Source: Oceaniferula flava (GTDB lineage Bacteria; Verrucomicrobiota; Verrucomicrobiia; Verrucomicrobiales; Akkermansiaceae). Taken from it: 64,000 nucleotides of DNA. The DNA lies in contig NZ_JAFBGL010000007.1 in the NCBI RefSeq assembly GCF_016811075.1, positions 1 to 64,000 of the forward strand, given 5' to 3'. Below the pieces are notes generated by a model, which was not told where the DNA came from, searched no databases, and saw nothing but the letters and a program-made list of their open reading frames with translations. The position numbers and the translations under genes are program-made. This document shows positions 905 through 32,217 of this stretch, one piece after another; within the stretch, counting starts at the first letter, position 1; each line of letters starts with the position of its first letter.

Positions 905-3900
905 TTAGACTTCGTCCGCGGCGAGCCAGCGGAAAGAGATAATTTCGAATCGGCGACCGTAACTTTGGTTGGTGGCATTGAGTGCTGCCGTTGCTGTTGT
1001 GGGGGCTTGCGAGTCATCGACAAAGGCATGCTGCCGCTGCACCACCGCTTCGCACCACACCTTGACCTGCGTTCCATCGTGCTCGGCCTCTCCATAAGAT
1101 CGGATGCGGAAGGTATCGCCTCTCACGGTGAGCGATGGGGCAAGCCGTCTGAGCAAGTCAGCCTGGGTGATCTGGGTCGCGGCACCATCCGAGCTATGCG
1201 CGGTGAAATTCCCGGAGGTCAGCTCGTTGTTGTTGCGCGCTGTTGGCAGTCCGAAGTCGCTATTGAGCTCTGCGTTTTCAATAGCCGTCTGCAAAGCTCC
1301 GGCATTTGCCGTGGCGGGATCATTGACCAACTGGCGATTAACAAATTCTGCGACCGACTGAAATGGGCCCCGCTTCTTGACCTCGGCAACGGCATGCTCC
1401 GCCAAGGTCAGAATCTGCTCATGGCTCAACCTGCGATGCCCTGCCCAGCGGCTCTGGTCATCGAAGTCTGCCGCCACTTCGTCGCCGATCATGGGGGAAA
1501 AACGAGACACCACCGCGTCAGGAGATTCAGCAACATCGGCCAAGGTGGAATTCGCTGTAAGCACATCCAGAATGGGCAGCGACTCGTTCGTGCCACTGGC
1601 TAAAAACAAGGCCCAGGCCTCAACAGTGGTCGAGTTCACATTGAAGGCACCCCGGTTGTAGAGATACTGTGCGAAAGTAGCGTAGTCGGATGAGCTGACC
1701 GATGGAGTCATGCTCGTGGCCGGCTCGAAATTAGGGTTGGCCAACGCTTTCCCATCTTCAAAAAATTCAGCGATCACCGTATTGAGATCACGTGGGGCAT
1801 TGCCAAATAGAGGGCCTCCTTCAGTAGCAGCAGTCGAGAGGAAATAGCCATCGAACAGGGTGTTGTTCGCCAAGTAGGAATGGTCGAGATGCGTTCCCAG
1901 GCTCCCTGACGTGGCTTTTTCCGACAAGGGCATGATCGGTGCGTTAAAGGCATTTCCAACAATCTGAGTCGTAAGCGGTGCCTGTCCGCCGCTATTCAAA
2001 GGGGCGTGAGAAAACTGGGCTAGTGAGGTCGAAGGGATGAGGGGGATTTGGGCATATGGGGCGTAGTTGACCCCGGTTCCGGATGTCACTCCGCCAGCGC
2101 CATAACCTCGGTTCTGGCTATCGACTTCCACCGCCGGCACCTGGTCCCAGGATGTCATCGGCTCCCAGGTCAGCTCATACTGATGGAACCTCTCATGCTC
2201 GTCCTGATCGATCCCCATGCTGAAGTAGGGGTTGGTGATTCCGTTGTGCAGCCACATTGAGCCATTGGGACTGCCCGCCACGGTGTCGGAGTCTTGCTCG
2301 GTTTTGAGTCGGAGCGAGGCGATCAGAAAAGGCACTTTCTCCGAAGCATCACCTTGCGGCTTGAGGTTCGCCCCGGTCACTGTCATCCGAGACATCTGGT
2401 TGGTATCGAAGCTCGGAAGTTTGGCCTCCATGCTGGTCTCATCAGGCAGGTCGATCTCGATGGCACCAATCTGGATGCGGTTCTCATCGAGGGTTGAGGC
2501 AAAGGCATCGACATCGCTGACATTCGAATCGCTGCCCCCGTCACCGCGATACATTTTCAGATAGGAAACGATCTCCTTGTTGTTTGTCTCCGGCCACAAG
2601 CTACCAGTGCGCTGCACCTTTGCCGGGCTAACACGAACAGAATAAACATCACCGAGCTTCACCTGAATTTGCGATTTATTACTGTTCGCATTGGGCCATG
2701 GACACTGGGCATTGTAATTTTCATCGGTGGAAATATAACGCTCAAACACACCACCGCTTCTCGGATTGAAACCTTCTTCCAAAACCAAGCCTTTGGTGTA
2801 GTTCCAGTTTTTATGATTGTAAGTCGTCCCCTTCGGCGCACCAAACACCTTGTATTCTCCGGGTTTTAACACGATATCGTTAACCCCCTTGGCATCACTG
2901 GGTCCGGTGATGCGGGCGCGGTAGGGAAGTTTGTCTTGCACGTTCTCCACACCGGTCGGGTTGTTGCCCCGGTTGAACATGTAAGCGATGTGCACCGGTT
3001 TCCCCGACGAGGCACTCTTCACGCCACTTTCATCCTCGCGGAAGAACTCGACTTGTAAGGGAAAACGATAGAACTCCAGCTCCATGGCATCGAACCGAAG
3101 CTCCACGTTGTAGGGGTTCCACACAGTGACCACCAGGTCCACCCATAAGCCTAAAAAGCCTACATAAGGATCAGCCAAGCTGTGTTCCTGCGGTGCCATC
3201 GAAAAGATGAACTGAGCGTTGGAAATCACTGGCTGCAGCTGCTGGCGATCGAAATACCCGCTGTCTAATTCCCGCTCATCGTCACTGGCCGCGATACCCA
3301 CTGCCCCGTTGTCGACGCTCACTTTTTGATAAAGCTGATAGTGGGAATGCAGCTGCGACCACTTGGGATCCGGACTCGGCATCGGTTCCGCACCTGAGAA
3401 CCGACCTGGAGCAGCAGCGATGGGCGTTTCGCTGTCGCTGTAAATATACCGATCGGCATATTCAGCCGGCAATGCCTCATCATCGAACAAGAGTGAGAGG
3501 TCCTTCTGATAGCCACCTTCGGCCACATTGGTCAGGAGGCTTTTGGAATCGGCGCTCAGGAAATGGAATGCCTTTCCCTCCTTGGGATCGAACTTGGAGC
3601 CGCTACCCACCAGAGCGGAGCTTCCCAGAGTCACCAACCTCGCTTGCTCGTCGCTGGTGATATCGCTAAGCGGTGCGTAGGAGTCGTCGGAATCAGCCAA
3701 AGCGTGAAAGCCGGAACGCCCTGTGGTGCCAAGCGCCGCGACACGCTCTGCCTCGGTCTCAGGGCTTGGCCTTCCAATTGTTAGGTTTGCCTTTTGTGAT
3801 TCGTCAAAGATATGCCACGCGTATTTCCCCGATCCACCTTGTCCGAGATCGGCCACGTCGACCGTGCTCGCGCGGACGTATTGACTCTCGGGCACATTAC

Positions 3901-4399
3901 CATAGGGCATCGGCAAGGTCCCCTCACCCACCAAGATCACGGAGTCCTCCGGTGACTTCGTGGCGTAGGCGAGATTACTTTGGTTTTCCGGCGTGGTGGA
4001 ACTCAGCCATTGGATGAAGTCGCCCGTTTTCTGCGCTGAGTAGGAAATGGCATTCGTATCGTTGTTAGACGGCTTAAAGGATCGCCACACTCCCAGCAGA
4101 TGAGCCTGGGCGGTGTTGTTCTCGTCGATACTGGCATTGGCGGTGATCCGCTGATCTGGTCCAGCGGCTTTCTGAAGTTCAGCCAGTGCTAACATCAAAC
4201 CCATACGAGCATTCGCGCGTGCGGAAATCAACGCCTGTGACTCTCCGGATGTCCGTTGTTCGAGAGTCGCCATACTCAGCATCGCCATGGCAATCATCAC
4301 CAGCAGCACCATGACACTGACCGTTGCGATCAGGACGAAAGCAGGTCTGTTCCGCAGCTGAGAGCCACGGCCTTGTGCTGATGGATGGGAGTAGATCAT
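905..4399 (-). CDS. Verru_Chthon cassette protein A-like prepilin-type protein
   Basis: A very large (1164-residue) protein. It has a short basic N-terminus followed by one hydrophobic helix at about residues 20-45 (PAFVLIATVSVMVLLVMIA) and then the helical sequence LEQRTSGESQ, the layout of PilX/type IV prepilin-like N-termini. The rest is long, Asn/Ser/Thr/Pro-rich and predicted extracytoplasmic. This matches the Verru_Chthon cassette protein A family (TIGR02600 type), whose function is not established. In those cassettes smaller pilin-like B, C and D proteins usually accompany A. None is visible upstream here, where a GH95-like gene precedes it by 172 bp. Family assignment is from memory of the N-terminal pattern and size. 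Confidence 0.75.
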   Translation of the reverse strand: MIYSHPSAQGRGSQLRNRPAFVLIATVSVMVLLVMIAMAMLSMATLEQRTSGESQALISARANARMGLMLALAELQKAAGPDQRITANASIDENNTAQAHLLGVWRSFKPSNNDTNAISYSAQKTGDFIQWLSSTTPENQSNLAYATKSPEDSVILVGEGTLPMPYGNVPESQYVRASTVDVADLGQGGSGKYAWHIFDESQKANLTIGRPSPETEAERVAALGTTGRSGFHALADSDDSYAPLSDITSDEQARLVTLGSSALVGSGSKFDPKEGKAFHFLSADSKSLLTNVAEGGYQKDLSLLFDDEALPAEYADRYIYSDSETPIAAAPGRFSGAEPMPSPDPKWSQLHSHYQLYQKVSVDNGAVGIAASDDERELDSGYFDRQQLQPVISNAQFIFSMAPQEHSLADPYVGFLGLWVDLVVTVWNPYNVELRFDAMELEFYRFPLQVEFFREDESGVKSASSGKPVHIAYMFNRGNNPTGVENVQDKLPYRARITGPSDAKGVNDIVLKPGEYKVFGAPKGTTYNHKNWNYTKGLVLEEGFNPRSGGVFERYISTDENYNAQCPWPNANSNKSQIQVKLGDVYSVRVSPAKVQRTGSLWPETNNKEIVSYLKMYRGDGGSDSNVSDVDAFASTLDENRIQIGAIEIDLPDETSMEAKLPSFDTNQMSRMTVTGANLKPQGDASEKVPFLIASLRLKTEQDSDTVAGSPNGSMWLHNGITNPYFSMGIDQDEHERFHQYELTWEPMTSWDQVPAVEVDSQNRGYGAGGVTSGTGVNYAPYAQIPLIPSTSLAQFSHAPLNSGGQAPLTTQIVGNAFNAPIMPLSEKATSGSLGTHLDHSYLANNTLFDGYFLSTAATEGGPLFGNAPRDLNTVIAEFFEDGKALANPNFEPATSMTPSVSSSDYATFAQYLYNRGAFNVNSTTVEAWALFLASGTNESLPILDVLTANSTLADVAESPDAVVSRFSPMIGDEVAADFDDQSRWAGHRRLSHEQILTLAEHAVAEVKKRGPFQSVAEFVNRQLVNDPATANAGALQTAIENAELNSDFGLPTARNNNELTSGNFTAHSSDGAATQITQADLLRRLAPSLTVRGDTFRIRSYGEAEHDGTQVKVWCEAVVQRQHAFVDDSQAPTTATAALNATNQSYGRRFEIISFRWLAADEV

Positions 4400-4571
4400 G
4401 AGATGACGGAGGTTCGATTAGGTTCAATTCCATCATGACTGGGAGATCACACGCTGTGCGACGTGGGAGCAGGGCGTTCGGTCCCACATTCACCATTTCT
4501 CCATGATGGATATTCAATATAACTTCATCCTATCCCATTGACTATCCGTAGTTTAACCGATGCCACGATTC

Positions 4572-6953
4572 CTATTCAGGAAAATAAAAACGATGCCCCG
4601 GTAGGCGGATGGTTTGATCATTGAGACCAAAGGCGTTCCGCTTATCCACCGGAACTGGGATCGGAACAATGCTGAGATCCGCCTGATCCAGCGCGACCGG
4701 CGTGAAGGTCACGCGGTCTCCTTGTTGAAGATCGATCGTATAAAACCCGTCTGCTGTCTTCGTTACCTGCGCCGGTTTTGCCTGCTCACCGTTGATCGTG
4801 ATGATAGGATTGGAAATATCGATCTGCACCTGGCACGGCGAACCGGCCAGACTCTTCACCGTCACGAACTGGGTGACGCCGGCTTTTTTCTTGGCACTGA
4901 CCAGAAAAGCTCCTTCGGTGCGCAGCTGGTGAAATGCCACATCCGCCCAGGCTTTCGGCGTGCCGTGAAGGACCCGGATTTTCCCACCCCAGCTCTGCAG
5001 CAACATATCGTGCACGCTGCTGGCAAACGATAGAGGACTCTCGATCACCGGATTGCCTTCGGCATACATCGTGGTCGGGGAAACATTCTTGTGATTGATC
5101 AAGAAATCGAGGTAGTAAGCCGCCTTTTCCGCATCGCCCAGTCGCGCATACATGGAGGCCGCACCCGTTGCGGTGTAGCCGGTGACAGGCATTGCTTTCA
5201 CCTTCTCCTTGCCGTTGATGGTCACATCTAACCAATGATCGACCGATGTCTTCAGCAACTTGGCATCTTTCGGGTTTTCCGGAGTGATTTCTGATAGAGG
5301 AAAAAATGGCAGCAGGTGCGAGTAGTGGCGGTGTGGTTTCTCGAAAGGGATGGTTTTCCCAATTCGCAGACCATTTTCATCCGTTTGGAAATCCACCAAG
5401 TGATCAAGAACATGCTGCCACTTGCTGGCTAAGGGATCGTTGAGCTGATGCTCTTTATCGATGTCGATCAAGGTGCGGCATGCCCAGCGCAGCAGACCGA
5501 TAGTAAAGTTGATATCCTGTCCGCGGCCACCCGGGTATTCTGGCGACCAACTTTTCTTGATGTGGATTTTGCCGTCGTCTGCTTTCACCGGGTTCTCGCG
5601 CAGATAGTTAAGGTAGCCATTCACATTCTTGCGTAGCAGTGGGAACAGTCCGTCACGCATCCGTTTCCGATCGCCCGCGTATTCGCAGTGCAGCCAGTAG
5701 TTATGCAAGATCCAGGCTAACATGTCCGGCGTCTTGGCATTGTCGTAGGAAAGGCAGTCCTGCGGAAACAGGGCACCCAGAGCCATGCTGTCCTTCCAGC
5801 GCTCCGGCACGTTTTTTTCCAAGTTATGAGCATACTTGTCCAGATTGTTAGGAAGCGACGCCCCCACGGACATCCGGTTCGCGGTGAGGTGTGTCCAGTA
5901 AATCAACTGCACGTTCAAATCCCCCCAGACCATCGGCCAGAAGGTGTAGTGATACCACGGCCCTAGGACGTCAAGAATCGGTCCGTCCTCACTCATGGCC
6001 GAAGCTAACTTATACATCTGAATCCAGTAGAATGCCTCCTTCTCCGGATCGTTCATGGTGAGGAAACTCTTCGGGTAATACGCGTGCCACCACTGGCGGT
6101 GCGTGGCGATGAACTTCTGCGCTTTCAGCGATTCTTTGGCCTGTTGCAAGTTGGCTTGGACCGTTGCCTTACTATTCTTCTCTGGAAAACTATGGTGCAC
6201 ACTGGCGAGGAGAGTTTGCTTCCCATCGGCAACTCCCAGAGTTTCCCAAGCGGTCGTGGTTTCACCTCGGTGCTGGTAGAGTTTTTGCAGACAAAACTGT
6301 ATCCCGTCCGCTTCGCTCAACTCCGGCTCGGGCGGCAGAGGATAGGGTGCCTTGCGCATGATGTCCCAGAAGCCTCCCTTCGGTCCTCCACCTCGTTCCA
6401 AGGTTTGGCGCACGGATGATTTGGCCAATTCAGGGTGCCACGAGATCTTTACCGACTCACCATCAGACGCGTCCGTTTCAAAATAAATGACATCGCTGGT
6501 TCGGTGAGTCAAAGCGCGCACTCGATATGATCCGGCGGTCGTTGCTATCGTGCCCACCAGCTCCGCATTCCACAGGTCCAAACGTAAATCGACACCCGTG
6601 ATGTCGCCTTTTGAGGTGAGGTTGAAGTGACCTAATGGAAGCCGACAGCGATAGATCCACAGACATTGATTGCCCTCATACGGTAGCCGATGATCGTAGT
6701 AATCGTGCCGACTGGTAAAGATCGAGATGACATTCTTTGCGCCCTTCGGCTGATAGAAGGTGAATCCCACATTGCCGTTTCCTGAGAAAGGAGCCACCTC
6801 CCAACGATTCGGTATCCGATCCCAAACCATGTCGTGGTTTCCCAAAAACTCTTTGTAACCGATCTTGGCCTCCGCGCTGTTGGGAACCGCAATCACTCCA
6901 ATGAGTGTCGTCGCTAAGACTAAAACGAAGGGGATAAATTTTGATACTCTCAT
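4572..6953 (-). CDS. GH95-like glycoside hydrolase (candidate alpha-L-fucosidase/galactosidase)
   Basis: A 793-residue secreted protein with a signal peptide (residues 1-29, ending AEA). The N-terminal ~280 residues look like the beta-sandwich of GH95-type enzymes. A helical (alpha/alpha)6-type region follows, with GDLNVQLIYW near residue 345 and HRHYSHLLPFFPLSEI near 550, both matching the layout of GH95 proteins. The C-terminus has MLLQSWGGKIRVLHGTP and a small beta-domain, also GH95-like. Known GH95 enzymes release alpha-L-fucose or alpha-L-galactose, which fits the fucose pathway at 51837-61158. The gene is last of the sulfatase operon, 6 bp after the sulfatase at 6960. Conservation of the catalytic residues could not be confirmed, and a divergent specificity is possible. 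Confidence 0.7.
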   Translation of the reverse strand: MRVSKFIPFVLVLATTLIGVIAVPNSAEAKIGYKEFLGNHDMVWDRIPNRWEVAPFSGNGNVGFTFYQPKGAKNVISIFTSRHDYYDHRLPYEGNQCLWIYRCRLPLGHFNLTSKGDITGVDLRLDLWNAELVGTIATTAGSYRVRALTHRTSDVIYFETDASDGESVKISWHPELAKSSVRQTLERGGGPKGGFWDIMRKAPYPLPPEPELSEADGIQFCLQKLYQHRGETTTAWETLGVADGKQTLLASVHHSFPEKNSKATVQANLQQAKESLKAQKFIATHRQWWHAYYPKSFLTMNDPEKEAFYWIQMYKLASAMSEDGPILDVLGPWYHYTFWPMVWGDLNVQLIYWTHLTANRMSVGASLPNNLDKYAHNLEKNVPERWKDSMALGALFPQDCLSYDNAKTPDMLAWILHNYWLHCEYAGDRKRMRDGLFPLLRKNVNGYLNYLRENPVKADDGKIHIKKSWSPEYPGGRGQDINFTIGLLRWACRTLIDIDKEHQLNDPLASKWQHVLDHLVDFQTDENGLRIGKTIPFEKPHRHYSHLLPFFPLSEITPENPKDAKLLKTSVDHWLDVTINGKEKVKAMPVTGYTATGAASMYARLGDAEKAAYYLDFLINHKNVSPTTMYAEGNPVIESPLSFASSVHDMLLQSWGGKIRVLHGTPKAWADVAFHQLRTEGAFLVSAKKKAGVTQFVTVKSLAGSPCQVQIDISNPIITINGEQAKPAQVTKTADGFYTIDLQQGDRVTFTPVALDQADLSIVPIPVPVDKRNAFGLNDQTIRLPGHRFYFPE

Positions 6954-25560: not shown

Positions 25561-27207
25561 CTAACGAATCTTTTCAAGCAGGCTGCTGAGTGTCTTTTTC
25601 AAGGTCGCTCTATCGGCGATCGTTTTCGGATCGTCGAAGCCTAACCAGACGACGCTCACAAGATCCGGCTGGAACGAAATAGCCCAGCCGTCTCGGCGGG
25701 AGGCGGTGGAGGTCACGAGCTGGCTACCGGAAGATTTTAGCCCCGCACTCGCCTGCTCGGCCACCACCTTGGAGATGGCGGACGTGGTTGCGATGGTATT
25801 TTCATAGAGCACATTCCCCTCCATGTCGGTGATGGCCATGATCATGTGCGGCTCGGGTCGCTCGCCCTGATGCACGATCGCAGAGGCGGCGGTGGCCAGC
25901 TCCATGGGAGTGGCGGCGATGGCTCCGCGGTAGAGGTCTTCGGTCTCTTGATACGGACCTTCGAAGCCAAAGCGCTTACTCAGTCGCAGTGTCTCCTTCA
26001 CTCCAAGCTGGCGTCCGGTTTGCACCATCGAGGTCGGGATCACCACCTTGCTACGCTCCAGCGCCATGGCGGTGAGGAAGGGGTAAAATGCCGGTCCGAG
26101 GTCGCGCTTGCTGAGCCACGCGCGGTTGAAGGGCGACTCGCCGTAATCGCGACCGCCACAAAGCGCAAGAATGCCACCGCTGCTGGGATCGAGCACCACC
26201 ACGGCGCCTTGCAGCTGCTCCGCATTCTCGATGCCAGTGAATGGTGCCTGCATCGCTCTGGTCGCCTGCTCTTGCAGCTTCGAATCGAGTGTGGTGAAGA
26301 TCTTCAACCCGCCGCTGCGGATATCGTGCTGGTCCAAAATCTTCTGGAGGCGGATTCGAATGCTTTCACGGGCGTAGGAGCTGTTACGATTCCGATCGGC
26401 TGCCGCCACCAGTCGGATCGGGTCGTCCAGCGCCGCAAGTTTCTCTTCTTCGGTCAAAAACCCACACACCACCATCCGTGCCAACACCTCATCGCGCTGC
26501 GCTTTTGCCCCTTCCAAATTTCTGAATGGGGAAAAGATATGCGGTCCACGGATGATCCCAACTAACAACGCGCACTCACCGGTGTTAAGATCGGCGGCGG
26601 CCCTGTCAAAATATGTCTGCGCCGCCTCCTCCACACCGTGGCATCCGGAGCCAAAATAAATGCGGTTGAGGTAGTGTGTCAGAATCTCATCCTTCTCATA
26701 CTGCCCCTCAATCCTCAGGGTCAGCGCGATTTCCAGGAACTTCCGGTGCAGCGACTTCGCCCGCATGTTGTAGCTGTTGCGCGCCAGCTGCATGGTCAGC
26801 GTGGAAGCTCCCTGGGTGAATGATCGGTCCTTGATGTTGCGCAGGGTGGCGCGGATGAGACCTTTGACATCGACTCCACTGTGGTCGAAAAAGCGCGCAT
26901 CCTCACGCGCCTCGAGCGCCTTCACCATCATCTCGGGGATCTCCTCCCTGGTGATCAAACGCCGCCGCTCTCCATGCATGGCACCGATGGCTTCGCCATT
27001 GCGGTCGAGGATTTCAGACCGCTCCGGCATCTTCCCCACGTCCGCCAGATTGAACTGCAGCGCGAGGTAGAAATAATACAAGGCCAGTGCCGTCAACAGA
27101 GCACCGACCACCAGTCCCCACTTCACTGTCCAGCGCAGTGGGCGGTGCAAGCGCTCGGGAATCCATGACGGCAGACGCGAGGCTTGGTTGGCAGGTTTCC
27201 AAGTCAT
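25561..27207 (-). CDS. Class A PBP-like glycosyltransferase with degenerate transpeptidase domain
   Basis: A 548-residue protein. It has a membrane anchor near residues 29-50 and a GT51 glycosyltransferase domain with intact motifs: REDARFFDHSG (catalytic Glu102), GASTLTMQLARN and KDEILTHYLNRIYFGSG. The following transpeptidase-like domain has lost its catalytic residues. Where class A PBPs have GSxFKPF, this one has GPAFYPF (Pro372 and Tyr375 replace Ser and Lys). The KTGTT motif is replaced by a STASRRD-containing segment, and no SxN is seen. It should polymerise glycan strands but not cross-link them. It lies 82 bp downstream of an intact class A PBP gene on the same strand. The transpeptidase remnant may bind partners or peptides. 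Confidence 0.88.
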   Translation of the reverse strand: MTWKPANQASRLPSWIPERLHRPLRWTVKWGLVVGALLTALALYYFYLALQFNLADVGKMPERSEILDRNGEAIGAMHGERRRLITREEIPEMMVKALEAREDARFFDHSGVDVKGLIRATLRNIKDRSFTQGASTLTMQLARNSYNMRAKSLHRKFLEIALTLRIEGQYEKDEILTHYLNRIYFGSGCHGVEEAAQTYFDRAAADLNTGECALLVGIIRGPHIFSPFRNLEGAKAQRDEVLARMVVCGFLTEEEKLAALDDPIRLVAAADRNRNSSYARESIRIRLQKILDQHDIRSGGLKIFTTLDSKLQEQATRAMQAPFTGIENAEQLQGAVVVLDPSSGGILALCGGRDYGESPFNRAWLSKRDLGPAFYPFLTAMALERSKVVIPTSMVQTGRQLGVKETLRLSKRFGFEGPYQETEDLYRGAIAATPMELATAASAIVHQGERPEPHMIMAITDMEGNVLYENTIATTSAISKVVAEQASAGLKSSGSQLVTSTASRRDGWAISFQPDLVSVVWLGFDDPKTIADRATLKKTLSSLLEKIR

Positions 27208-27289
27208 GGTATTTATTCAGAGATCAAGATAAAGTGCTCACAGGCCCGACGAGTCACAGCTCGTCCCGGGCTTAGAAAATTTGGCTCGT

Positions 27290-29656
27290 CTACTCAACGG
27301 GGATCGCTCTCGGCGGACGGTCCGGCTCCACAGGAATCGCCCTTGGCGGAGTGCGGTTAGTTCTGCGGGGAGCCACGGCGCGCAGCGGGTGAATGGTGCA
27401 GTAGTCGCGAGGCTCCGGCATGATATCGGCAGGGACTTTGGCATTGTAGGCCGAGTTGTGAGCCTCGCAGCCACTGGTGGCGTGTTTGGCCGACCAGCGA
27501 CAAAGCCGAGCAGTTTGTAAGCGTAGCGGTTTGAACTTCGGCGTGGCGTAACCCAGTCGACCCGCCACCTTCATCACATCGGTCCAGATCGGTGCCGCCA
27601 GGGTTGAGCCGTAGCCGCGGTTGATGATCTTTTGGGGTTTATCCATGCCCACCCAGACAGCGCATGTTAGATTCCCGGTGTAGCCGGCAAACCAGGCGTC
27701 TTTGTAATCGTCGGTGGTGCCGGTTTTGCCTCCGCAGGGTGCTTTGTAGCCCAGGGCGCGGACCTTGCGGCCGGTGCCTCGATCGACCACTTGTTGAAGG
27801 ATGTTAGAGACGCTCCAGGTCGCTCCAGGCTCGGCCGCGCTGACCACCAGCTTGCCGGAATCTCCCTTGCCCGGGTAGAGGCGCTCGCCCTCGGCGTTGC
27901 GAATTTCCTGAATGATGTAGGGCCGATACCAGTCGCCATTGTTAGGGAACACCGTGTAGGCACTCGCCACCTGCCAAGGGGTGGCTTCCCAAGAGCCTAA
28001 GAAGGAGGATGGGGTCATCGGGATGCCGTCGATAAACCCAACGTCGATGGCTGTTTGGTTGACGTTTTTCAGTCCGGCAAAGTTTCCGACCCGAGCCGAT
28101 GAGGTATTTCTCGAGCGCACCAGAGCGTCTTCCGCGGTGATGTAGGTGCCGAATTTTCCATCCGAGTTATGCAAATTCCAGGTGCCGGACATACCATCGA
28201 TTTCTCCCGGCTGGATCCGGCTGTCGCGCACCCATGTTTGTGGCAGCATGCCGTGATTGAAGGCAGTGAGATAAACGAAGGGTTTGAACACGGAGCCGAT
28301 CTGGCGCTTGGCCTGGATCGCGCGGTTGTATTTGGATTCATCGGCATCGCGTCCTCCCACCACGGACAAGACCGCGCCGCTACGGTTCTCGATGACCACG
28401 GCTGCGCCCTGCAGATACGCCGGCTCGCCGCGTCGCCCCTGCGGTTTGCTCTGCCATTGCTTGCGTGTTTGGTGTCGGTAGCCGGAGGTTTTTTCCACCT
28501 TGGCGAGGTTGCGTTCCATGGATAGCTCGGCGGCGCGCTGGATGGTGTGATCGATGGTGGTGATCACCGTCAGCCCACCCTCCTCGATGTTGTGCTCCTC
28601 GAGGATGCGATCGAGCTCACGCCGGACGCAGTCCATGACGTAGGTGTCCTGGATGACGCGCCGGTTTTTGGGTCGGATACGCAGTTTTTCCTTCTTCGCA
28701 GCGTCTGCCTGCTCCTGGGTGATGTGTTCGTAGAGCACCATCCGCCCCAGGGTGACATCGCGCTCATGGGTGGCTTTGTCGATATTCTTGAATGGAGAAA
28801 AAGCATTCGGCCCGCGGATGATCCCCGCCAGCATCGCCGCCTCCGAGAGCGTCAGCTGGTTGGCCGATTTCTCGAAATACGTGCGCGAAGCCGCTTCGAT
28901 GCCGCGGATCGAGTGACCCCAGAAAATCCGGTTCATGTAGTGCTGAAGGATCTCGTCCTTTTCGTATCGCTTCTCAATTCTGAACGCGACCGCCATTTCC
29001 AAGAACTTCTGGTCGATCAATTTCAGCTTCGACGGCTTCGGTCCGGTGTCGGGTGGGAAGTAGGTATTCTCCGCCAGCTGGATACTCAGGGTTGAGCCTC
29101 CTTGGGCCAGGCGTTTGCGGCGAATGTTTTCTTTGAATGCCCGCGCCAGACTGCGCACATCGATCGCTCCATGGTCGTAAAACCGGGCGTCCTCACGGGA
29201 AATCAAGGCGTCCCGGAAGTAGGGCGACACCTGATCGAAGTCGACCAAGTAACGGTTGTCCCCGTGCAGTCGGCCAAGCTCCACCTTGCCCTCGCGGGCG
29301 TAGACCATGGTGCGGGCCGGCATTTCCGCCACCTTATCGAGGTTGTAGCTGCTGGCGCGGACGAAGTAAAAGATGGCTAACAGCGCCAGGAAACAGGCCG
29401 CGATCAGAGCCAGCGAACCAGCTACGCAAGCCGGCCATTTCACCGCCGGATGCCAGTTTCGCGTGATCCTTCCTACCAGCATGAAGGGCCAGAACAACAA
29501 GGTGAACAGCGCGCCGCGCGGCTTCGGTGCCGCTTTCTTCCCGCCCCGCTTGCGAGTGGATTTTTTCCCAGACGCACGCGATTTACGCTTAGGAGCACTC
29601 TTGGGTGGACGAAGTCTGCCACTCCCTGAGCGTGTGTTAGTTTTGCGGCGTGCCAT
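27290..29656 (-). CDS. Bifunctional class A penicillin-binding protein (PBP1A-like)
   Basis: A 788-residue peptidoglycan synthase. The first 50 residues are a highly basic cytoplasmic tail, then a transmembrane helix near 78-100. The GT51 domain has REDARFYDHG (Glu155) and GGSTLSIQLAEN. The transpeptidase has all three motifs: GSVFKPF (Ser455, Lys458), SRN in VRSRNTSSARV, and GGKTGTTDDYKDAWFAGYTG. The C-terminus is Pro/Arg-rich and ends with a duplicated PPRAIPVE. It polymerises and cross-links peptidoglycan at the inner membrane. The transpeptidase-dead paralogue follows on the same strand. Confidence 0.93.
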   Translation of the reverse strand: MARRKTNTRSGSGRLRPPKSAPKRKSRASGKKSTRKRGGKKAAPKPRGALFTLLFWPFMLVGRITRNWHPAVKWPACVAGSLALIAACFLALLAIFYFVRASSYNLDKVAEMPARTMVYAREGKVELGRLHGDNRYLVDFDQVSPYFRDALISREDARFYDHGAIDVRSLARAFKENIRRKRLAQGGSTLSIQLAENTYFPPDTGPKPSKLKLIDQKFLEMAVAFRIEKRYEKDEILQHYMNRIFWGHSIRGIEAASRTYFEKSANQLTLSEAAMLAGIIRGPNAFSPFKNIDKATHERDVTLGRMVLYEHITQEQADAAKKEKLRIRPKNRRVIQDTYVMDCVRRELDRILEEHNIEEGGLTVITTIDHTIQRAAELSMERNLAKVEKTSGYRHQTRKQWQSKPQGRRGEPAYLQGAAVVIENRSGAVLSVVGGRDADESKYNRAIQAKRQIGSVFKPFVYLTAFNHGMLPQTWVRDSRIQPGEIDGMSGTWNLHNSDGKFGTYITAEDALVRSRNTSSARVGNFAGLKNVNQTAIDVGFIDGIPMTPSSFLGSWEATPWQVASAYTVFPNNGDWYRPYIIQEIRNAEGERLYPGKGDSGKLVVSAAEPGATWSVSNILQQVVDRGTGRKVRALGYKAPCGGKTGTTDDYKDAWFAGYTGNLTCAVWVGMDKPQKIINRGYGSTLAAPIWTDVMKVAGRLGYATPKFKPLRLQTARLCRWSAKHATSGCEAHNSAYNAKVPADIMPEPRDYCTIHPLRAVAPRRTNRTPPRAIPVEPDRPPRAIPVE

Positions 29657-29875: not shown

Positions 29876-30877
29876 ATGTTTCCAAGAATCAAATTACCCA
29901 ACCTAGCCGCCATCGTCGGCCTGACCTCTCTCATCGCGGTCAATGGGCTGCAGGCGCAATCGTCGATCGATGATCTCTCCGACCTGAAAAAGCTGCAGAG
30001 CAAGGTCCAGCGGGTTGCCAAAAAGGTGATGCCCGCAACCGTCTCGCTGTTCTCCACCAAAAATGGAGCCTCCGGCAGTGGAGTCATCGTCAACCGCGAA
30101 GGCCTTATCCTCACCGCCGGTCACGTCATCCGGGGAGCTGAGGAAATGACCGTCATCCTCCCCGACGGCACCCAAACGCAAGGGAAAGTGCTCGGAGCAA
30201 ACTACACCCGCGATGCCGCCATGGTGCAAATCACCGATACCAACAAAGTCTGGCCGTATGCGAAAATTGGCAGCGCCAAGAAACTGGAAATTGGCGATCT
30301 GGTGGTGGCCCTGGGCCACGCCGGCGGCTTCGATGCGGTGCGCACCCCACCAGTGCGCTTTGGCCGCATGATTGCCCGTGGCGACAACCAGTTCATCACC
30401 ACCGACTGCACCCTGATCGGAGGCGACAGTGGTGGCCCCTTGTTCGATCTGGATGGCCGCGTGATCGGCATCCACTCATCCATCGGCATGTCGCTGTCCT
30501 CCAACAACCACGCCAGCATCGATGGCTTTCTCCAAGACTGGAAAAAACTCGAAGCCGGAAAAACATGGGGCCGTCTCGGCGGCAGCAGCATGGACGATCC
30601 CGACTCCCCGGTGATCGGCGTCCTTACGGGCGACAGTGAACGGGGCGGCATCGTCATCCGTGCCGCCTTTGAAGGTGGCCCAGCCTTTGACGCCGGCATC
30701 CGTGCGGGTGATATTTTACTCAGCATCAATGGCCGCCGCGTCACTAACCTGCGGGCTCTCCACGCAGAGATCGTGCGCCACGCACCCGGCGATGTCATCC
30801 TCGTGCGGCTTGCTCGTGGTCAGCAAAACATCACCCGCAAGGTCAAGCTCGGCCGTCGCGGTGACTTCCAAGAATAA
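29876..30877 (+). CDS. HtrA/DegP-like periplasmic serine protease
   Basis: A 333-residue trypsin-fold protease with a signal peptide (residues 1-28, ending LQAQ) and one C-terminal PDZ domain (about 245-325). The catalytic triad is complete: His83 in LILTAGHVI, Asp113 in YTRDAAMVQI and Ser185 in GGDSGGPLFD. It is shorter than DegP, with one PDZ, like DegS-type or single-PDZ HtrA enzymes. It likely degrades or inspects misfolded envelope proteins. It is followed 44 bp downstream by a related protein whose His and Ser are missing, so the two may form an active/inactive pair. Confidence 0.92.
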   Translation: MFPRIKLPNLAAIVGLTSLIAVNGLQAQSSIDDLSDLKKLQSKVQRVAKKVMPATVSLFSTKNGASGSGVIVNREGLILTAGHVIRGAEEMTVILPDGTQTQGKVLGANYTRDAAMVQITDTNKVWPYAKIGSAKKLEIGDLVVALGHAGGFDAVRTPPVRFGRMIARGDNQFITTDCTLIGGDSGGPLFDLDGRVIGIHSSIGMSLSSNNHASIDGFLQDWKKLEAGKTWGRLGGSSMDDPDSPVIGVLTGDSERGGIVIRAAFEGGPAFDAGIRAGDILLSINGRRVTNLRALHAEIVRHAPGDVILVRLARGQQNITRKVKLGRRGDFQE

Positions 30878-30921
30878 CGCAGTCCCTCTGAATTTCCCCA
30901 ACTCACTCAACCCACTATCTC

Positions 30922-32217
30922 ATGAAACATCCATCACGCATCATTGCCACCGGATTACTCGCCCTCACCCTGCATGCCTCCGCCCAGAGCGGACTGCGCA
31001 TGCCGAATCCACTGGACACCCTGAACCCCGCCGAACGCAGGTTGCTGAGCACTCAGGCCGACCAGTTTTTCAACGCCGTCAAGCCGGCCGTGAACACCGC
31101 CGCGCAGAGCACCGTGAACGTCACCTTCCGCGGTAAACGCATCGCATTGGGCACCGCCATTTCTGAAGACGGCGAGATTCTCAGCAAGTGGAGCGAGGTC
31201 GCCGCTGCCAGCCAACACCTCGTCATCATCACCGCCGATGGCTCCCAGCACGCCGCCATCGTCACCGGTGTTTATCCGGAGCACGATCTCGCGATCATTA
31301 AAACCGACGCCAAACTGACTCCGGTCCAGTGGGCCAAGCAGGCGGCACCGGAACTCGGCGACTTCATCGCCTTGGCAAACCCCGCCGGTGAAGCCGAGGG
31401 GCTCGGCGTGGTCAGTGTGAAACCACGCAGCCTGCGCGAGCGCGACAAGGCCTACCTTGGCGTCATGATGGACTTCACCGTAGCCGGCGAAGGTGGCATC
31501 CCACTGACCCGCGTGATGCCCGATTCCGGAGCGTTCAAAGCCGGCTTGAAGGACGGTGATGTTGTCGTGGCCATCGACGATCGGAAAATCAACGGTGCCA
31601 TGGAAATGCGCAACCTGCTCCAGCGTCTGGTGCCGGGCTCTGAAATCAAAGTCCGCTACCGCCGCGGCGACGCGGAACACAATGCCATGGTCCACCTTGG
31701 CTCGCGTGCCGATAACGATTCCATCCGCCGCGTGCCTCAGGCACGAATGTCGAAAATGCAGCGCATGGGCGCCATCCCCAGTAAAGTGCGCGAGAATTTC
31801 CCCAGCGTGATTCAATCGGATATGGCCATCGAGCCCAACGATGCCGGAGGCCCGGTCGTCGATCTCGAGGGCAGAGTCATCGGCGTTTCCATCGCCCGTG
31901 GCAGCCGGATCAAGACCTTCATCATCCCGACCACTACCGTGCTCGATGTGCTCGCCACCAAGCCGGAGCCTTACCGCCCCGGCATGGTGACAGAACTGAA
32001 CCAGCAACTCGCTGGCAACAATCAAGTCACCCGCCGCAGCACCCCCAACGCACGCAACCGAAGGGTGCTGCCGGAGAGTGATGACGATCCAATGGGCCGC
32101 GTGCGCAAGCACCTGCGCGAGATCGAGCGTAACCACGACTCCACCGAAGAAAGCTTGCGCGCGATCGAAGACGCTCTCCGCCGCATGGGAGAGCTCGAGC
32201 AACGTAGTCAGCGCTAG
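30922..32217 (+). CDS. Pseudo-HtrA protein with PDZ inserted into an inactive protease fold
   Basis: A 431-residue exported protein (signal to about residue 22). Residues 55-160 resemble the first half of a trypsin-like HtrA domain, with EHDLAIIK retaining Asp122, but the His position reads LSKWSEV (Ser91). A PDZ domain follows (about 175-262). Only then does the second half of the protease signature appear: SDMAIEPNDAGGPVVDLEGR, where the nucleophile is Ala308. The C-terminal ~70 residues are charged and helical, probably coiled coil. With two triad residues lost it cannot be a standard serine protease. It follows the active HtrA by 44 bp and may regulate, recruit or compete with it. Confidence 0.88.
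   Translation: MKHPSRIIATGLLALTLHASAQSGLRMPNPLDTLNPAERRLLSTQADQFFNAVKPAVNTAAQSTVNVTFRGKRIALGTAISEDGEILSKWSEVAAASQHLVIITADGSQHAAIVTGVYPEHDLAIIKTDAKLTPVQWAKQAAPELGDFIALANPAGEAEGLGVVSVKPRSLRERDKAYLGVMMDFTVAGEGGIPLTRVMPDSGAFKAGLKDGDVVVAIDDRKINGAMEMRNLLQRLVPGSEIKVRYRRGDAEHNAMVHLGSRADNDSIRRVPQARMSKMQRMGAIPSKVRENFPSVIQSDMAIEPNDAGGPVVDLEGRVIGVSIARGSRIKTFIIPTTTVLDVLATKPEPYRPGMVTELNQQLAGNNQVTRRSTPNARNRRVLPESDDDPMGRVRKHLREIERNHDSTEESLRAIEDALRRMGELEQRSQR

Follow-up and report, generated by a model that had tools for sequence, protein, structure and literature searches.

The HtrA-type proteases DegS, DegP, and DegQ each consist of one kind of subunit, with an intact catalytic triad and a PDZ domain that follows the protease domain. 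In DegS, according to a review (PMC11642142), a ligand bound by the PDZ domain shifts loop L3 (residues 176-189), Arg178 of L3 then contacts the LD loop of the neighboring subunit, and one ligand thereby activates two subunits. That arginine is also involved in inhibition, through a salt bridge and contacts with the unliganded PDZ domain (PMC11642142). With sensing and cutting present in every subunit, the allostery of HtrA proteins is hard to dissect.

Precedents already exist for the coupling of active and dead HtrA domains. In magnetotactic bacteria, the HtrA-type protease MamE and its dead HtrA-type partner MamO are encoded in one gene cluster, and MamO promotes proteolysis by MamE, acting through its C-terminal transporter domain, while its dead protease domain binds metal (PMC4794232). 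Plant Deg7 carries potentially active and degenerate HtrA domains in a single chain, ordered PD-PDZ-PDZ-PDia-PDZ-PDZ, and the degenerate protease domain is reported to be involved in trimerisation (PMC3473262).

The pair of genes considered here, A and B, lies within a window of 64,000 nucleotides (the whole stretch of DNA analysed) from Oceaniferula flava. It recalls MamE/MamO in joining an HtrA-type protease to a dead partner, but it differs from that system, in which MamO works through a transporter domain, and it recalls Deg7 in bringing together potentially active and degenerate domains, but as two genes rather than one chain, and with the PDZ domain of the dead part nested, also in fused relatives, rather than placed after the protease domains. 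B has the same protease fold as DegS, DegP, and DegQ (Z about 23 against PDZ-less DegS), yet the pair differs from them in having two kinds of subunit, of which one has lost its triad and has its PDZ domain elsewhere. In other folds, a PDZ domain between parts of a protease is familiar from the site-2 proteases and the S41 C-terminal processing proteases, which are catalytically active. The pair is a new arrangement with a testable mechanism, neither a new fold nor a new chemistry; should B prove to be a dedicated allosteric subunit, the pair would be the only HtrA known to us that has one. A description of an HtrA with a nested PDZ domain was not found in the open-access literature searched, which included part of PMC6411480, and the main text of a paper on the essential genome of Verrucomicrobium spinosum (PMC12283558) mentions no HtrA, protease, PDZ, or trypsin. 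The features of the locus are as follows.

27290-29656, minus strand: class A penicillin-binding protein gene, divergent from A (Pfam Transgly and Transpeptidase)
29876-30877, plus strand: gene A, HtrA-type serine protease, 333 aa (open reading frame, Pfam, alignment of triad columns)
30922-32217, plus strand: gene B, catalytically dead HtrA-type protein with nested PDZ domain, 431 aa (open reading frame, Pfam, AlphaFold2, alignments)
31045-31437, plus strand: B, protease fold part 1, about residues 42-172, with Ser91, Asp122, and Arg169 (alignments and model; limits set by us)
31444-31707, plus strand: B, PDZ domain, about residues 175-262, at the position of the L3 loop (Pfam, model, alignment with DegS, DegQ, and DegP)
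31774-31974, plus strand: B, protease fold part 2, about residues 285-351, with Ala308 in the Ser position (alignments and model; limits set by us)
31981-32214, plus strand: B, charged helical C-terminal tail, residues 354-431 (helices of the model)

A protease fold interrupted by a PDZ domain

A is a normal small HtrA. Pfam finds Trypsin_2 at residues 67-199 and a single C-terminal PDZ domain at 245-325, so that A has both the triad and the PDZ-after-protease order of the HtrA/Deg (S1C) group. The residues first proposed as the triad, His83, Asp113, and Ser185, do fall in the triad columns of the alignment, and all three are intact in every one of 89 aligned A's. The matches of A in the PDB are of the DegP type. 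Against the model of the Do subfamily (TIGR02037, NCBIfam; curated cut-off 416.2) A scores 150.7 bits and B 99.1 bits, the latter in three stretches; against the MamO model (NF040961; curated cut-off 800) the scores are 50.1 and 23 bits. A is presumably proteolytically active, and the N-termini of both A and B look like signal peptides.

B lies on the same strand as A, 44 bases away. Its Trypsin_2 domain is split: Pfam finds positions 1-96 of the 144-position profile at residues 77-161, followed by PDZ_2 at 188-258, and the remainder of the protease, at about 291-345, is recognized by comparison with solved HtrA chains. The second part opens with a linker typical of the family, resembling SxRRxxFPxVxQxD. 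In the AlphaFold2 model of B, made with an alignment of 50 rows (pLDDT 89.6, pTM 0.76), the PDZ domain is likewise nested. VIA-align superimposes the model on two PDZ-less chains of DegS, 2r3u_A (183 residues of a 202-residue chain, Z 22.6, rmsd 3.2 Å, spanning residues 43-350 of the model) and 2rce_I (184 of 198 residues, Z 23.0, rmsd 4.4 Å, spanning 36-350). Since the flanks on either side of the PDZ domain align to DegS, the model indicates a single trypsin-like fold that the PDZ domain interrupts. Foldseek, among the 50 matches listed, returned HtrA chains, with TM scores (normalised to the query) up to 0.32, values this low against whole HtrA chains being expected from the changed domain order. 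A profile of the B family matched all 60 solved chains listed, each in two or more stretches. The first-pass annotation had placed the PDZ domain of B inside the protease fold rather than after it, and Pfam, the predicted structure, and the alignment with DegS all agree; a normal order of protease and then PDZ domain did not appear, and is ruled out by model and alignments. By the marks of the S1C group, then, B has the double-barrel fold and lacks both the triad and a PDZ domain after the protease. The long charged C-terminal helix ascribed to B is present in the window as three predicted helices (354-371, 390-404, and 409-430) but is not general in the family: many orthologous reading frames, such as the genome's second B of 339 aa, are too short to encode the tail.

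The active site of B was compared over an alignment of 89 A/B pairs to the DegS, DegQ, and DegP proteins of E. coli. Its triad columns hold Ser91, Asp122, and Ala308, as had been proposed. Histidine is absent from the His position in all 89 B's, which have Ser (85), Glu (2), Ala (1), or Thr (1), so no orthologue that would speak against a dead site by its histidine came to light. The Asp position holds Asp in 87 and Asn in 2. At the Ser position are found Cys (22), Val (22), Ala (14), Met (14), Thr (7), Ile (6), and four others, and the idea that Ala308 is itself conserved as a functional residue must be given up; it is the loss of Ser, not the Ala, that is kept. In a separate set of 55, a single B (L053) has Ser at this position, yet it lacks His. 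A motif of B's own, K-x-S-E, surrounds the lost His: in the 50-row alignment Lys89 and Ser91 are at least 90% conserved, and Asp122 fully so. This points to a remodelled site rather than to decay, and the conserved motifs rule out that B is a decaying pseudogene.

The protease fold of B breaks off after VSVKPRSL and resumes at ENFPSVIQSD, segments that align with DegS residues of about 173-180 and 185-193, respectively. Given the limits of L3 in DegS, the inserted PDZ domain falls within L3. A has a short L3, 13-15 residues in 87 of 89 A's versus 17 in DegS and DegP, whereas that of B, with the PDZ domain excised, runs to 20-25 residues in 88 of 89 (a length that depends partly on the cut points chosen). 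The equivalent of DegS Arg178 is Arg in all 89 B's (Arg169 in the window) and in 86 of 89 A's. Arg169 is also at least 90% conserved in the 50-row alignment of B, two of whose B's are not among the 89. Since the arginine is common in A too, it is no distinguishing mark of B, and A may form a trimer that activates itself. The equivalent of DegS Gln191 is Gln in 76 of 89 B's versus 30 of 89 A's. No clear counterparts of the DegS LD-loop residues were found in either A or B in the alignment of the 89 pairs.

Pairing, fusion, and distribution of A and B

The pairing of B with A is near-obligate. In loci that were fetched for a match to B, many of them from related genomes, so that the counts are not of independent events, 95 distinct B's were found, 77 of them immediately downstream of an A on the same strand, 13 fused to A (12 in the order A-B, one in the order B-A), and 5 without an A call. 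Contig ends truncate two of these five, L079 and L089. Two others, L077_3169 and L088_1790, each neighbor a gene that fuses A and B in the order A-B, and their N-terminal extensions are long; the one in L088 resembles a protease (E 2e-5), whereas any such resemblance in L077 is not significant. The last, L144, has no A nearby, although one is encoded elsewhere in its genome (G266), on a separate contig. A further set of 17 loci, of which 15 were picked because of long frames or because they belong to family f44, yielded 10 more A-B fusions and one more B-A fusion; four chosen for long frames (L166, L167, L179, and L180) turned out not to be fusions. In the 76 unfused pairs, the median gap between A and B is 3.5 bases, with 73 gaps of at most 50 bases and the longest of 156, some negative gaps arising from the choice of the longest reading frame.

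Both fusions in the reversed order, B before A (L128 and L170), come from family f44, outside the class. The fusion at L168 (G527:C1:243000-251500, reading frame 3039-6803, minus strand) is 1254 aa long, and the roughly 500 residues that precede its A domain match no Pfam family at E 0.01.

A and B have also diverged together. Over 89 pairs (the 95 B's less the five without an A call and L072, where a contig end leaves only a fragment of A), the distance matrices of A and B correlate with a Mantel r of 0.90, a value reached by none of 2000 shuffles (best 0.14). Mirrored trees partly reflect shared species history, a concern that is answered in part by the paralogous pairs: the 29 genomes that have exactly two pairs provided 327 clear cross-genome comparisons, of which 324 matched the partners in the same way, and 79 unclear ones were set aside. 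A maximum likelihood tree of B, rooted at the midpoint, has two large groups, of 44 and 45, with the position of several long-branched fusions unsure, and most genomes of the Akkermansiaceae family with two pairs have one pair in each group. Absence, too, is shared. In 16 hand-picked genomes, an A-like match scores at least 151 bits in all six that have B, and in the ten in which B was not found no such match exceeds 98.1 bits (three of these ten are only 69-83% complete). Orthologues, adjacency, fusions in both orders, matching distances, and co-absence bear out the initial suspicion of a dedicated active/inactive pair. The partnership of A and B is well supported, if indirectly.

Some couples may possess just the nested PDZ domain. 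Pfam finds one PDZ domain in the fusions L060 and L126, the nested one, and hence B holds the only PDZ domain of the couple. In genus g3 (L135, L137, L139, and L141), the A of one pair is just 246-254 aa long and matches the A profile over the protease only, so that here too the PDZ domain of B seems to be the couple's sole one. The natural A-B fusion L169 (675 residues) was predicted as a single chain, using 41 aligned rows (14 fusions and 27 B's alone), with pLDDT 88.6 and pTM 0.85, the linker at 327-341 falling below 50. That the pTM reaches 0.85 although the linker is poorly predicted suggests that A and B adopt a defined arrangement within the fusion, but a mixed trimer is beyond what the folding of one chain can reveal. 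When this model was superimposed by VIA-align, the alignment lay mostly in the A half (residues 23-321).

All genome counts given here include the window's own genome. Searched with the single B protein at E 1e-10, 31 of 39 genomes gave a match, mostly in its own genus and family. A profile of 50 rows at E 1e-40, scored on the best 8 first-look candidates per genome, found B in 194 of 260 genomes of the family and in 170 of the 239 genomes sampled from the order, representing 40 of 48 genera; B is thus a family and not a one-off. Genus g3, presumably Akkermansia, accounts for all 20 of the non-matching genomes listed in the family search and 18 of the 20 listed in the order search, and 15 other genomes of g3 carry B according to the family search. 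In a sample of the phylum (E 1e-15, with scoring of 5 candidates per genome), matches came from 197 of 387 genomes, but the long colinear ones among those listed were limited to B's own family, a second family of the order, and f44, the rest being partial, as generic HtrA proteins give. Within the order of f44, 3 of 6 genomes match. A search of plasmids with the genome's second B gave no match. Planctomycetota may have similar proteins. Orthologues across the order rule out chance or an artefact of annotation, and the observation made in the first-pass annotation is confirmed as real and wider than could be seen from one sequence.

Possible roles of the dead partner

Regulation, assembly, or an adaptor function had been suggested for the pair. 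The pair and its altered domain order are supported, and the function itself can be approached only by inference. What narrows the reading to a sensing subunit is the insertion in the loop equivalent to L3, together with the retained L3 arginine. A and B would be two subunits of one envelope HtrA-type assembly, in which A would cut and B cannot. B would retain the protease fold as a docking scaffold, with the PDZ domain in place of the L3 loop. That domain would bind exposed C-termini or an envelope partner, and binding, being built into L3, would alter the interface between A and B and so switch or aim A. That B is such a non-catalytic sensor or adaptor subunit of a mixed HtrA assembly has, in our judgment, slightly better than an even chance of being correct. 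It presumes that A and B, as separate proteins, come together in a mixed oligomer and that the PDZ domain of B binds a ligand. The more specific proposal, an HtrA of two components that divide cutting and sensing between them and in which replacement of L3 by a PDZ domain wires ligand binding into the neighbor-activating interface, we advance tentatively, as possible but short of an even chance. On the sensor reading, the effect of B on A would be activation, rather than inhibition or targeting.

Because Arg178 of DegS is inhibitory as well as activating, conservation of its equivalent cannot tell activation from inhibition, and B might instead be a brake, capping or diluting oligomers of A and keeping A off until a ligand of the PDZ domain releases it. 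Dead subunits can poison oligomers, and the pairing, the fusions, and the dead site agree with a brake as well as with a sensor. Resting DegS, moreover, is held off by the unliganded PDZ domain and L3, Arg178 included (PMC11642142). A fusion that fixes one dead domain per active one would, however, always carry its brake, and release would have to occur within the chain; we consider a brake unlikely.

Perhaps B serves only for targeting or as a chaperone adaptor, docking A while its PDZ domain tethers A to an envelope partner, possibly the cell-wall machinery, with no allostery at all. MamO offers a precedent, since the part of it that promotes proteolysis by MamE is the transporter domain rather than the dead protease domain (PMC4794232). 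The genes flanking A may offer another argument: a homologue of class A penicillin-binding proteins stands divergent to A in 28 of the 82 loci whose flank was long enough (in 7 more it was too short), spanning seven genera, g3 included, and two families, and three of these were confirmed by Pfam to have Transgly and Transpeptidase domains. A link of the pair to cell-wall synthesis is a lead. The neighbor was not found in the other 54 of the 82 loci, though, and an adaptor of this kind leaves unexplained why the PDZ domain sits in L3 rather than at the C-terminus, and so we judge it rather improbable. Least of all would we expect B to be an independent protein, repurposed for instance to bind a ligand or metal and sharing only an operon with A. 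The K-x-S-E motif around the lost His might be taken to mean that the old site is under a constraint of its own, but fusions in both orders, paired divergence, and co-absence would be hard to account for, and we regard this as most improbable.

If the sensor reading is right, an HtrA with cutting and sensing split between subunits is present across much of one order, frequently as two pairs in a genome, and evolution appears to have separated here the two activities that every subunit otherwise combines. The natural fusions fix A to B at one to one, and the paralogous pairs within one genome can serve as controls of specificity. The pair touches, besides, on envelope quality control in the Akkermansia family.

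Neighboring genes and other couples in the genome

On the minus strand of the window, 25561-29656 holds two genes in tandem that resemble penicillin-binding proteins; the one at 27290-29656 is the one checked with Pfam. Downstream of the pair, a bactofilin was considered as a general partner and rejected, as it occurs in 6 loci only, the window included, all of one genus (reading frames of at least 100 aa examined). The symporter beside the second pair is found in 7 loci, all in the window's genus. A function in defence was set aside, PADLOC giving no match for B and weak matches for A.

The genome has a second nested pair, on contig C3 (L009, 4539-5618 and 5681-6700). A further gene (C8, L192/L008, 325-1962, minus strand) fuses an intact protease to a dead domain that has the K-x-S-E motif and no PDZ domain. 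This dead domain is a relative of B, either in an ancestral form or after loss of the PDZ domain, and its existence implies that the PDZ domain is not needed for pairing. Among 30 genomes, a long orthologue of this fusion was found in G013 only.

An active/dead tandem of normal domain order, Trypsin_2, PDZ_2, and PDZ_3, occurs at L188 (G000:C3:54000-60000, 1211-4219, minus strand). It has a match in 27 of the 30 genomes, with the copies adjacent on one contig in 25 of the 27 and those of the other two, G005 and G007, broken at contig ends or incomplete, and it is present as well in genomes that lack the nested system, for example G015. Its dead members, 20 in number, have Glu (16), Gln (2), Ala (1), or Ser (1) at the His position, Asn (19) or Glu (1) at the Asp position, and Phe (15) or Tyr (5) at the Ser position. 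Ser is kept in all of the 19 active members, Asp in 18, and His in 15, the rest being gaps. With several couples of intact and dead HtrA proteins in one genome, coupling looks like a habit of the lineage, of which the nested PDZ domain looks like the most elaborate form seen here.

At L187 (G000:C10:145000-150500, 1110-3947), an HtrA with four PDZ domains is followed by a Trypsin_2 protein of 251 aa that has no PDZ domain and is, by eye, degenerate. Couples of this type were found in 2 of the 30 genomes, the window's own included.
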